Source: Nocardioides xinjiangensis (GTDB taxonomy: Bacteria; Actinomycetota; Actinomycetes; Propionibacteriales; Nocardioidaceae). From it: a DNA stretch of 64,000 nucleotides. The stretch is from assembly GCF_017916455.1 (NCBI RefSeq), contig NZ_JAFMSY010000002.1, positions 310,001-374,000 on the forward strand. The letters run 5' to 3'. Within the stretch, counting starts at the first letter, position 1; every line of letters starts with the position of its first letter. Under the pieces are notes generated by a model. It ran no database searches. It was not told where the DNA came from and was given only the letters and a program-made list of their open reading frames with translations. This document shows, piece by piece, positions 7,841 to 64,000 of the stretch. A program made the position numbers and the translations under genes.

Positions 7841-7913
7841 GCGGACGTAGCTCAGTTGGTAGAGCGCAACCTTGCCAAGGTTGAGGTCGCGAGTTCGAGC
7901 CTCGTCGTCCGCT
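7841..7913 (+). tRNA. tRNA-Gly (GCC)
   Basis: Complete cloverleaf: acceptor GCGGACG pairs with CGTCCGC, D-arm around AGCTCAGTTGGTAGAGC, anticodon stem CAACC/GGTTG with loop TTGCCAA (anticodon GCC), and T-arm with GTTCGAGCC. Discriminator is T. No CCA is encoded. Confidence 0.97.
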
Positions 7914-7946
7914 CGGAGAGGTCTCCCCCGACACGTGGGCCTCCAC

Positions 7947-8017
7947 GGTGGGTTGGCCGAGAGGCGAGGCAACGGACTGCAAATCCGTCTACACGGGTTC
8001 AAATCCCGTACCCACCT
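7947..8017 (+). tRNA. tRNA-Cys (GCA)
   Basis: Acceptor GGTGGGT pairs with ACCCACC; anticodon stem ACGGA/TCCGT holds loop CTGCAAA with anticodon GCA; T-loop GTTCAAATC is present. CCA is not encoded. It lies 33 bases after tRNA-Gly. Confidence 0.97.
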
Positions 8018-8036
8018 CGCAGGAACAACTCAACAC

Positions 8037-8111
8037 GGGCGATTGGCGCAGCGGTAGCGCGCTTCCTTGACACGGAAGAGGTCACTGGTTCAAACCCAGT
8101 ATCGCCCACCA
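8037..8111 (+). tRNA. tRNA-Val (GAC)
   Basis: Acceptor GGGCGAT pairs with ATCGCCC; anticodon stem CTTCC/GGAAG with loop TTGACAC gives anticodon GAC. This is the only one of the three tRNAs with an encoded CCA end (8109-8111). Confidence 0.97.
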
Positions 8112-54032: not shown

Positions 54033-54668
54033 TCAGTGCTGCGTGGACCGCTGGCGGCGCACCTCGCGGACGAACTCCCATCCCGACCACAGCGTCATCG
54101 CGACGGCGCCCGCGAGCAGCAGCTGGCTGGCGTAGAAGAGGACCTCGCCGAGCGGTCCGGGCCAGAAGTCGAAGGCGCCCCCGTGAGCGTCGCCGTGGGG
54201 CAGCGGCCAGGTCAGGCCCGACAGCGCGATGGCCTGCAGGACGGTCTTGATCTTGCCGCTCCGGGCCGCCGGGATCACGATCTGCTTGAGCACCGACAAG
54301 CGCAGCAGCGTGACGCTCCACTCGCGCAGCAGCACCACGACCGTCACCCACCACCAGATGTCGCCCACGACCGACAGGCCGATGAAGGCCATGCCGGTGA
54401 TCGCCTTGTCGGCGATGGGGTCGGCGATCTTGCCGAAGTCGGTGACCAGCCCGTGCTTGCGGGCGAGGTCGCCGTCGATCTTGTCGGTGATCATCGCGAC
54501 GGCGAAGAGCGCGAACGCCACCCAGCGCCAGAGCGGGTCGTTGCCGCCGTCGTGCAGCAGGGCCCAGCCGAAGAAGGGCACCATCACGATGCGGAGGGTG
54601 GTGAGCAGGTTGGGCACGTTGAAGTTCGACACCGTGCGCGGCTCGGTGCCGGCCTGGTCGTGGGTCAT
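54033..54668 (-). CDS. pgsA: CDP-diacylglycerol-glycerol-3-phosphate phosphatidyltransferase
   Basis: Makes phosphatidylglycerol phosphate; also supplies the PG used by Lgt. The 211-residue membrane protein has the CDP-alcohol phosphotransferase motif DKIDGDLAR then eight residues, G, three residues, D, three residues, D ([19 protein letters not shown] and DPIAD). Four to five membrane helices. ATG overlaps the rimO stop (ATGA). Confidence 0.95.
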
Positions 54669-56167
54669 GCGCGCGCTCCGTCCGCTCGGGCGATCAGGTC
54701 CACCCCGTCTGTACCCGTGACCACGGCGGTCAACAGGTCGCCCACCCGGGCGTCCTCGGCGCCGGTCACCAGCGTCGTCCCGTCGACCTCCGGACCCTGG
54801 TGGGCGGCGCGGCCCTCGACGGCGCCGTCCTCGACGGACTCGACGAGGACGACGACCGCCTCGCCGATGCGCTCCTCGGCCCGCTGGGCATTCAGCTCCT
54901 CGACGAGGCCGGTGACGTGCTCGGTGCGGGCGCGGATCTCGTCGTCGTCGAGCTTGAGGTCCTCGGCGAAGCCGGCCGCCTCGGTGCCGTCCTCGTCGGA
55001 GTAGCCGAACACGCCGGTCACGTCCATGCGCGCCGCCTCGAGGAAGTCGCACAGCACCTCGAGGTCGTCCTCGGTCTCGCCGGGGAAGCCGACGATCACG
55101 TTGGACCGCACGCCGGCCAGCGGCGCGAGCGACCGGATCCGCTCGAGCAGGTCGAGGAAGCTGTCGGGGTCGCCGAAGCGGCGCATCCGGCGCAGCACCG
55201 GGGCGCTGGCGTGCTGGAAGGACAGGTCGAAGTAGGGCACCACGCCGGGCGTGGCTGCGATCGCCTCGATGAGGCCGGGCCGGGTCTCGGCCGGCTGCAG
55301 GTAGGAGACGCGGACGCGCTCGATGCCGTCGATGCCGGCGAGCTCGGGCAGCATCGTCTCGAGCAGCCGGAGGTCGCCGAGGTCCTTGCCGTAGGACGTG
55401 GAGTTCTCGCTGACGAGGAACAGCTCGCGCACGCCCTGCGTGGCCAGCCACTGCGCCTCCTGGAGCACGTCGCTGGGACGGCGGCTCACGAAGGAGCCGC
55501 GGAAGCTCGGGATGGCGCAGAACGAGCAGCGGCGGTCGCAGCCGCTGGCCAGCTTGAGCGGCGCCATCGGTCCGGCGTCGAGGCGGCGGCGCACGGCGCG
55601 GGGCCCGGTGGCCGGTGCGCCCGCACCGATGTCGCTCACGTCGACGGCGACCGCCTGGTGACCCGGCACCGAGATCGCGGCGGCGCTGCGCTCGACCGGC
55701 GAGATCGGCAGCAGGCGGCGCCGGTCGGAGGGCGTGTGCGGGTGGTGGACCTCCCCCGCCACGATCGCGCGCAGCCGGGACGCGATGTCGGGGTAGTCGT
55801 CGAAGCCGAGCACCGCGTCGGCCTCGGGCAGCGACTCCGCGAGGTCCTTGCCGTACCGCTCGGCGAGGCACCCGACGGCCACCACGGCCTGCGCCCGGCC
55901 ACCGTGGCCCGCGGACCTCTTGAGGTCGGCAGCCTCGAGCAGGGTGTCGACCGAGTCCTTCTTGGCGGCCTCGACGAAGCCGCACGTGTTCACCACGACC
56001 GTGTCGGCGTCCTCCGGGTCTTCGACGAGGACGAAGCCGCCCGCCTCGAGGCGTCCGGCGAGCTCCTCGGAGTCCACCTCGTTGCGCGCGCAGCCGAGGG
56101 TCACGACCGCCACCTGCAGCGGTTCGGCGGGTGCGGCGGGCGGGGTCTCGAGGTCGGTCGTGGTCAT
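54665..56167 (-). CDS. rimO: Ribosomal protein S12 methylthiotransferase RimO
   Basis: A 500-residue radical-SAM enzyme that methylthiolates an S12 aspartate. It has the UPF0004 N-terminal domain with cysteines in [12 protein letters not shown] and [13 protein letters not shown], the radical-SAM triad in CDRRCSFC, and a C-terminal TRAM domain. The ATG at 56167 is preceded by CATACT nine bases upstream. It leads into pgsA. Confidence 0.96.
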
Positions 56168-56228
56168 CGCACCGTGAGTATGCCGCGTCCGGGCGACGCG
56201 ACGCGCACCGCCGAGGCGGTGAGGCGGC

Positions 56229-57325
56229 TCACGTGCACGCCGCGGCGTCCCCGGTCGACGGGTCCATGGAGCTCCTGACGGCCCGCCAGACGTCGTCGCC
56301 GCGGTCGTGCCCGCCCAGGCCACGCGTGACGAACGCCGCCCCGTACCCGGCAGCGGGCTCGGTCCAGGCCGAGCACCCGCCCGCGCCGCCCATGCCGATC
56401 TCGAGCCGACCGTCCTCCTCGTCGCGCTGGAAGCCGAGCGTCCACACGACGTCGCGGTCGAGGACCAGGTCGTGGCCGGTCGCCGCGGGGCCGAGGTACG
56501 CCCGCCACAGCTCGGGCCCCAGGCGCTGCGCCACGAGCCCGTCGGGGCGGGCGACGTCGTCGTAGCAGCGGGCCAGGCCCAGGGCCGAGGCGGCAGGGCG
56601 ATCGCGGGGAACGACGTGCGCCGGAAGCGGGACGAGTTCAGGACCTGCGGGTCGAGCAGCCCGCGCGGGCGCCCCAGGGCCGGCCCCCAGCGCGGGTCGC
56701 GCACGTAGTCGGAGCGCCAGGTCGGCGACACCTCCTCGACCGTGGCGACGCGGTCGAGGTCGTCGTCGGCCACCCGCAGGTGGAGGTCCCAGTCGGCGGC
56801 CGCGGCGATGCGGCCGAAGCGCTCGGCCAGCTCCTCACCCGTCGCGCGTCGCAGCACCTCGTCGAGGAGGTGGCCGTAGGTGAGCGCGTGCTCAGCGACA
56901 CCCGTGCCGGGCTCGTGGACCGGCGTGGCGCGGGCGAGGAGGCCGACCAGCGCCTCGCGGTCGTCGTACGCGACCTCGTCCGCCTCCGGGCCGAAGGCCG
57001 GCAGCCCCGCCTGGTGCGACAGCAGGTGCCGGATCGTCGTGCCGGCCTTCCCGGCCGCGCCGTACTCCGGCCACCAGGCCACGACCGGGTCGTCGAGCGC
57101 GAACGCCCCCTCCGACACGGCGTCGAGCACCGTGAGGGCGGCGAACGGCTTCGCCACCGAGTAGGTCATCACCAGGGTGTCGGACGACCACGCGCGGCTG
57201 CCGTCGGAGGTGCCCGCCGCGTGGTCCACCTCCACGATCCCGTCACGTACGACCGCCACGGCGCAGCCGGGGTCGCGACCCGACGCCACGAGCGCGTCGA
57301 GCGCCGCTGCGGGATCGAGGTCCAT
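56229..57325 (-). pseudogene. Serine beta-lactamase-fold hydrolase with a one-base frameshift
   Basis: The first frame (from ATG 57325) gives a class C-like beta-lactamase/DD-peptidase fold: TYSVAKPF with the SxxK (Ser56, Lys59), [12 protein letters not shown], and [10 protein letters not shown]. Near 56590 the frame shifts: adding one C to GAGGCGGCAGG restores [23 protein letters not shown] and joins the frame [15 protein letters not shown] to 56229. A member of the beta-lactamase family with unknown substrate. It is decayed or affected by a sequencing error; the 5' end keeps CATCGT as a likely leaderless promoter. Confidence 0.88.
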
Positions 57326-61965: not shown

Positions 61966-62011
61966 CGGGCGTCTCTGGTCCCGGGTGCGTCTCGGATTCG
62001 GAGGAAAGAGC

Positions 62012-64000
62012 GTGAAGCTCCTCAACAGGGGACTTGCACTCGCGGTCGTGGGAGCGGGCCTTGCCGCGCTGCCCACGGTCGGCGTGCAGGCAGCACCGGC
62101 CGCACGGGCCGACACGAACGGCGTCGCAGCCATGGCCGACCGGGCCAAGGGTCAGGTCGCCGTCACGCGCGAAGAGTCGAACAAGAAGGTCGGCTTCATC
62201 CGCGTCAAGGGCGAGGGCGACCTCTTGCCGAGCGTCGAGGGCGACTCCCTCGGCGCGGCGAGGGACAAGGCCGACGCCTACCTCGACCAGTACGCCGCCA
62301 ACTTCGGCGCGCGTCCCGGTGAGCTCGTCCGCAGCGGTGTCGCGAAGACCGCGGCCGGCTGGACCATCACCTACACCCAGTCCTACAAGGGCGTCGGCGT
62401 GTTCGGCTCGATGCTTCGCGTGCAGGTTGACCACGAGGGCGACCTCACCGCCGTCAACGGGTACGCCGCACCCGACCTGTCGCTGTCGGTCGACCCCCGG
62501 ATCTCCGCGGCCGACGCTGGCAAGCGAGCCGTCGGCCTGGTCCGCGAGGACCCGCCGGCTCACGACGGGGAGACCGCCGACCTCACCGGCATCGCGCCCA
62601 AGACGACCGAGCTGGTCGTCTACCGCATGGGTGCCACCCGCGGCGAGACCGGCGAGGCCGTGCTCGCCTACCAGGTCGAGGTCACGAACGAGAACAACAT
62701 CCGCGACGCCGTCTTCATCGACGCCCAGACCGGCAAGGCGCTGAACCGCTGGTCCATGGCCGCGCACGCGCTCGACCGTGAGCTCTACGAGGCCACCGGC
62801 ACCGCGCAGAACCCGGTGCTGACCCGCGTGTGGAAGGAGGGCGACCCGGTCGACGGGCTCAACGTCGACCAGCGGAACCTGGTCTACTCCGCCGGCGAGT
62901 CCTACTGGCTCTACCGCAACGCCTTCGGTCGCGACTCCTACGACGGCAACGGCGCGGTCATGCGCACGGTCAACAACGACCCACGCATCAGCTGCCCCAA
63001 CGCCAACTGGAACGGCGTGACGACCAACTACTGCGACGGCGTCACGTCCGACGACATCGTCTCCCACGAGTGGGGCCACGCCTACACCGAGTACACCTCC
63101 GGCCTGATCTACCAGTACCAGTCGGGCGCGCTCAACGAGTCGTACTCCGACGTGTGGGGCGAGACGCTCGACCTGGTCAACGGTCGCGAGGACGAGGACG
63201 AGGAGTTCACCACCCGGCGCACGGTCGGTGACTGCGACGCGACGGCCCCGCCGGGCCTCGAGATGGCGATCACCGCCCCGGCCAACCTCGCCGGACCGTG
63301 CGTCGCCGTGGCGGCCACGGGCGCCAAGCCCTTCACCACCACCGCGATGACGGCGCAGGTCGTCGTGGCGACCGACGCCGCGAACACGACCGGCCCCACG
63401 ACCACCGACGGCTGCACCGCGTTCACCAACGCCGCCGCGGTCGCCGGCCGGTGGGCCTACGTCGACCGCGGCACGTGCACGTTCGCGACGAAGGTCGCCA
63501 ACGCGGAGACCGCCGGCGCGACCGGCATCGTGATCGGCAACAACAACGTCGACCCGCCGGCCGGCTTCACCGGCGACCCCGACCTGTACGGCGTGATGGT
63601 CTCGCAGGCCGACGGTGCCCGCTTCAAGAGCACCACCAGCCCGGTGACCGTCTCGGTCCGCGCCGAGGACGTCTCCAGTCGTCCCGACACCACCCGGTGG
63701 CTCATGGGCGAGAAGTCCGAGGCCTTCGGCGGCGCGATCCGCGACATGTGGAACCCCACGTGCTACGGCGACCCCGGCAAGGTGACGGACGCCGAGTACA
63801 AGTGCGACCCCAACGGCTCTGACGCCGGCGGCGTGCACAGCAACTCGGGTGTGCCCAACCACGCCTACGCCCTGGTCGTCGACGGCGGCACCTACAACGG
63901 GCAGGCCGTGACCGGCCTCGGCCTCGACAGGGCCGCCGCCATCTGGTGGCGCGCGCAGACGGCGTACCTCACGCCGCAGTCCAACTTCATCGATGCGGCG
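62012..64000 (+). CDS. Secreted thermolysin-like (M4) metalloprotease with inserted PA domain, 3' end missing
   Basis: The first 663 codons are present; the gene runs off the window. Signal peptide (MKLLNRGLALAVVGAGLAAL), FTP/PepSY propeptide, then the catalytic domain with HEWGH (His352-His356) and, exactly 24 residues later, the third zinc ligand Glu376 in NESYSD. A protease-associated (PA) domain follows about 395-545 (CTAFTNAAAVAGRWAYVDRGTCTF). The catalytic domain resumes at RWLMGEKSEAFGGAIRDMW and the active-site His609 in GGVHSNSG. GGAGG precedes the GTG start. Confidence 0.93.
   Translation, partial: MKLLNRGLALAVVGAGLAALPTVGVQAAPAARADTNGVAAMADRAKGQVAVTREESNKKVGFIRVKGEGDLLPSVEGDSLGAARDKADAYLDQYAANFGARPGELVRSGVAKTAAGWTITYTQSYKGVGVFGSMLRVQVDHEGDLTAVNGYAAPDLSLSVDPRISAADAGKRAVGLVREDPPAHDGETADLTGIAPKTTELVVYRMGATRGETGEAVLAYQVEVTNENNIRDAVFIDAQTGKALNRWSMAAHALDRELYEATGTAQNPVLTRVWKEGDPVDGLNVDQRNLVYSAGESYWLYRNAFGRDSYDGNGAVMRTVNNDPRISCPNANWNGVTTNYCDGVTSDDIVSHEWGHAYTEYTSGLIYQYQSGALNESYSDVWGETLDLVNGREDEDEEFTTRRTVGDCDATAPPGLEMAITAPANLAGPCVAVAATGAKPFTTTAMTAQVVVATDAANTTGPTTTDGCTAFTNAAAVAGRWAYVDRGTCTFATKVANAETAGATGIVIGNNNVDPPAGFTGDPDLYGVMVSQADGARFKSTTSPVTVSVRAEDVSSRPDTTRWLMGEKSEAFGGAIRDMWNPTCYGDPGKVTDAEYKCDPNGSDAGGVHSNSGVPNHAYALVVDGGTYNGQAVTGLGLDRAAAIWWRAQTAYLTPQSNFIDAA

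Follow-up and report, generated by a model that had tools for sequence, protein, structure and literature searches.

Peptidase family M4 (MEROPS M4; PF01447 and PF02868), to which thermolysin belongs, comprises textbook proteases with industrial uses, and a small S1' pocket is the main determinant of their specificity. In thermolysin the third zinc ligand follows the histidine of the HExxH motif at a distance of 24 residues and precedes the catalytic histidine by 65, and the loop of residues 182-190 also bears calcium ligands. Protease-associated (PA) domains are found in three other groups of peptidases that are relevant for comparison. In S8 subtilases such as the C5a peptidase ScpA, P57 and VapT, a PA domain interrupts the catalytic domain close to the active site, a nested arrangement that is already known for this unrelated serine-protease fold (PMC5177683). 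M28 aminopeptidases with a PA domain (BSAP, PaAP) are exopeptidases of another fold and carry the domain on a different scaffold. Bacterial M36 (fungalysin) proteins with a PA domain (L125-L127; NF038111, NF038112 and NF038113) are gluzincins with a nested PA domain, which is located upstream of HExxH, after approximately position 62 of PF02128.

We analysed a 64,000-nucleotide stretch of Nocardioides xinjiangensis DNA (the window) which ends within a gene encoding a secreted M4 metallopeptidase with a PA domain nested at a different site. The coding sequence (62012..64000, forward strand, as are all features of this gene) comprises the first 663 of 1140 codons and runs beyond the end of the window; the stop codon is located 1431 nt further downstream on the same contig (locus L005). 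The GTG at 62012 is more likely to be the start codon than the alternative in-frame GTG at 61985, which would give a protein of 1149 amino acids, because a Shine-Dalgarno sequence (GGAGG, 62000..62004) lies seven bases 5' of the former. Residues are numbered from GTG 62012 and would be nine higher if counted from GTG 61985. The N terminus, VKLLNRGLALAVVGAGLAALPTVGVQA (62012..62092), looks like a signal peptide when inspected by eye and is followed by a propeptide region (62366..62752) with weak matches to FTP (E 0.0027) and PepSY (E 0.0034), both below cut-off; FTP is over its cut-off in the homologue L116. The remaining Pfam matches in the protein are a weak MAM-like stretch and C-terminal Ig-like Big_3_5 domains, and a search of the protein against phage families gave no match. 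A close homologue in a public record is named only 'M4 family metallopeptidase'. Elsewhere in the window, a tight cluster of three tRNA genes is present at 7841-8108 (forward strand), and a long frame at 54665-57325 (reverse strand) fuses a serine beta-lactamase-like N-terminal part to rimO (MiaB-like). Because the C-terminal part of the beta-lactamase seems to continue in another frame (56229-56534, reverse strand), the beta-lactamase-like gene looks frameshifted, either as a pseudogene or through a sequencing error.

The protein has the fold and the active site of an M4 peptidase. Pfam searches identified Peptidase_M4 (PF01447; 62879..63091) with 33.6 bits (cut-off 22.4) and Peptidase_M4_C with 104.1 bits (cut-off 24.4), the latter split in two with the PA domain in between; its second part (63698..64000; Pfam and phmmer) starts at a W-x-x-G-E motif. 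Sequence and alignment place the zinc motif HEWGH (His352, catalytic Glu353 and His356) at 63065..63079 and the third zinc ligand, Glu376, at 63137..63139 within NESYSD, which follows the NExxSD pattern of M4, and the catalytic His609 lies within HSNSG at 63836-63850. The spacings given in the sequence-only reading, 24 residues from His352 to Glu376 as in thermolysin and 233 from Glu376 to His609 compared to 65 in thermolysin, both hold in this numbering. The catalytic histidine in HxNSG and its Asp, Arg and Tyr helpers are invariant or nearly so in an alignment of 109 M4 rows, and the active-site residues are invariant in 29 homologues. Because the zinc ligands and the equivalents of the catalytic residues have been kept (His352, Glu353, His356, Glu376 and His609, together with the counterparts of thermolysin Asn112, Tyr157, Arg203 and Asp226), the enzyme should be active as a zinc endopeptidase. 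Membership of M36 was rejected: PF02868 and PF01447 match the protein instead of PF02128, which gave no match at E values up to 1. The M36 motif HEYSHG...EGWSD also differs from that of the Nocardioides protein, and matches to the NCBIfam M36 models were far below cut-off, with the best stretch within the PA part.

Unlike thermolysin, the Nocardioides protein has an insert of about 171 residues that includes the PA domain and lies downstream of the third ligand but ahead of the catalytic histidine (63185..63697; phmmer and alignment), between thermolysin positions ~181 and W186. A phmmer comparison with thermolysin gave two aligned blocks, of which the first ends around position 181 and the second resumes around position 198. 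In the alignment with 32 PA-less M4 proteins, the PA-less rows part from the query at N390/G391 and return at the W-x-x-G-E motif, which corresponds to thermolysin W186-E190, and the insert stands in place of roughly thermolysin residues 182-185. It consists of a linker with Cys408 followed by the PA fold (63245..63679; Pfam and fold match), within which the Pfam PA core spans 63359-63622 (PF02225, E 1.6e-14, 54.2 bits compared to a cut-off of 23.9). The sequence-only reading had recognized a PA domain in the extra segment and had placed it after the third zinc ligand and before the catalytic histidine. Pfam and the fold match identify it as a true PA domain, Pfam and the structure model bear out its nested position, and the PF02225 and fold matches rule out an extension or loop without a PA fold. 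The spacing is 246-275 in 101 homologues compared to 84-102 in the 32 PA-less M4 proteins, and its occurrence in so many homologues rules out chance or an assembly artefact.

Structure prediction recovered both the thermolysin fold and the PA fold. The AlphaFold2 model based on 109 alignment rows had a mean pLDDT of 95.5 and a pTM of 0.91 (94.2-95.5 mean pLDDT over the five models), and this high pTM suggests a fixed arrangement of the M4 and PA domains. The best VIA-align match of the model was thermolysin (Z 32-33 over about 260 residues; 4ow3 with Z 33.1, rmsd 2.3 and 259 residues), followed by other M4 entries and by M36 at Z 19. Solved M4 chains among the structure matches are 298-330 residues long, which is too short to include a PA domain. 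The PA part (model residues ~166-310) matched solved PA domains with Z scores of 13-16 overall, the best being BSAP of the M28 family (Z 16.0, rmsd 2.0, 122 residues), with VSR1 at Z ~16, the S8 peptidase ScpA at ~15.5 and ScpB also matched. An earlier model from 29 close rows showed the same folds at lower confidence and left the loop following the PA domain under a pLDDT of 50, which was cured once PA-less M4 rows joined the alignment.

A PA domain nested in a catalytic domain is not as unusual as the sequence-only reading had assumed, since both S8 (PMC5177683) and M36 peptidases have this arrangement, as do two S8 subtilases encoded by the same genome. The internal PA domain in an M4 peptidase seems to be undescribed, although nested PA domains are well known in other protease families; no M4 enzyme with an internal PA domain was found in the open-access literature, where absence is weak evidence. 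The PA sequence is nearest to the PA domains of M36 peptidases (34-48% identity), which are of the same subtype, and to the PA domain of an M14 peptidase, and is clearly more distant from the PA domains of S8 and M28 peptidases encoded in the same genome. Because of this, the domain was probably acquired from an M36/M14-type donor. One M14 zinc carboxypeptidase (L132; G270:C1:484786-485178) carries a PA domain of the same subtype after its catalytic match. The insertion site is not that of M36, in which the PA domain lies upstream of HExxH instead of downstream of the third ligand. We infer the direction of PA transfer between the families; that an M36-type PA domain moved between gluzincin families to a new site, where it is now part of the M4 primed-side wall, is a tentative proposal that we consider possible and somewhat improbable.

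In a tree computed from the M4 core with the insert removed, the PA-bearing rows form one branch with 100/100 support, joined only by the PA-less L117, and a single PA insertion early in the subfamily is the simplest reading of the sequences. L117 (G205:C60:36176-36967) encodes an M4 peptidase of the HEWGH type without a PA domain, with a spacing of 99 and an altered D226 region. It is long-branched, nested in the large tree and outside the PA-bearing branch in a smaller tree, and may either predate the insertion or have lost the PA domain. An ftsK gene is a neighbour in 63 of the 80 loci examined, and genes for RNase J and dapA are found downstream in many of them; this conserved gene neighbourhood fits vertical inheritance. 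Gene pairs encoding PA-bearing M4 proteases in tandem (L050, L058, L073, L081, L087 and L089) suggest local duplication.

The M4 peptidase with a nested PA domain is present in more than half of the sampled Nocardioides species: a strong match to the combined M4 and PA profile, nearly always full-length, was obtained in 125 of 215 genomes and in 112 of the 191 good genomes. The domain search suggested with the sequence-only reading indicated that the architecture is rare among the sampled Actinomycetota. PF02868 gave about 110 matches in 52 of 396 genomes, and only two were split, in this genome (G000) and in G279. These two genomes also contained the only full-length relatives found with the M4 and PA profile, and G279 was the sole carrier among 27 genomes of its class. 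For this sample, a common occurrence of PA-bearing M4 peptidases across the Actinomycetota is thus ruled out. A scan of all bacterial and archaeal species with clade-specific motifs yielded 339 loci, of which the best 80 belong to Nocardioidaceae or Propionibacteriales, save for one Gaiellaceae MAG and one MAG labelled Promineifilum. The PA-bearing M4 protein of the latter (L101; 54% identity, G+C 0.63) may represent a true transfer or a misbinned contig. A plasmid search added one further full-length homologue. On a plasmid of Georgenia sp. TF02-10 (L133; NZ_CP094290.1), ftsK, the PA-M4 gene, RNase J and dapA are present in the Nocardioides order. This record may hold Nocardioides DNA, because the strain name resembles that of Nocardioides sp. 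TF02-7 (L075).

The nested-PA architecture is well supported and the mechanism is a proposal. After the PA domain the chain resumes at W186, two residues ahead of I188. In thermolysin, S1' includes I188, and S2' includes Y193 and L202 (PMC7993378). By analogy with other proteases, we favour, at about even chances, a PA domain that acts as a primed-side exosite or a partial gate. Inserted into the catalytic domain of a secreted M4 zinc endopeptidase that should be catalytically competent, the M36/M14-type PA domain would pack as a second domain, presumably flanking the active-site cleft on its primed side. As an exosite it might capture or orient protein substrates, and it might also partly restrict access to S1'-S2'. 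In this way it would tune specificity towards bulky protein substrates and take no part in the chemistry. The proposal is based on comparable roles of PA domains in subtilases, where they bind collagen, alter cleavage specificity (casein) or limit access (PMC5177683), and on PaAP, in which the PA domain swings and thereby opens the active site (PMC11313473). Counting against it, PaAP without its PA domain hydrolyses small substrates equally well (PMC11313473). Column conservation is 0.56 for the PA domain compared to 0.77-0.78 for the M4 catalytic core, and within the PA domain it is chiefly cysteines, along with a few further residues, that are fixed; this lower conservation is consistent with an accessory surface adapting to substrates. 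The function of PA domains varies by host, and in plant subtilases they serve in dimerisation and maturation, which also weakens an exosite or gate role.

Alternatively, the PA domain could be mainly structural, replacing the tip of the calcium loop (thermolysin 182-185), with the extra cysteines locking the domain for secretion or stability. The insert does sit in the loop that bears the thermolysin calcium ligands, and Cys408, Cys430, Cys468 and Cys489 are invariant or nearly so in the homologue alignment while most other PA residues vary. However, thermolysin D185 is replaced by R in this protein, and R before W is also found in the PA-less L035 and L118; from these sequences, the loss of the D185-type ligand is not caused by the PA domain, and a PA domain is not needed to compensate for it. 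The other surveyed M4 proteins also manage without one, and we regard a mainly structural role as doubtful. It is unlikely that the domain acts away from the active site, in oligomerisation or in attachment to the cell wall or to substrate particles. Dimerisation of tomato SBT3 needs its PA domain and the PA domain of P57 binds collagen fibres (PMC5177683), and the Nocardioides protein also has C-terminal Ig-like domains, but these domains could already provide attachment, and with few fixed PA residues no conserved interaction surface was found in the homologue alignment. A neutral insert, retained through common descent alone, is quite improbable: although the PA domain evolves faster than the core and one origin explains nearly all members, its length stays within narrow limits in 101 homologues and it is retained, cysteines included, in 125 of 215 genomes.

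If an M36-type PA domain was indeed moved into the M4 primed-side wall, the Nocardioides protein would be an enzyme of the thermolysin type that owes its specificity to a transferred exosite. A natural lineage with a whole extra domain beside the S1' pocket shows where the M4 fold can be extended, and the PA-bearing proteins and their PA-less relatives form a clean pair for probing the function of PA domains.
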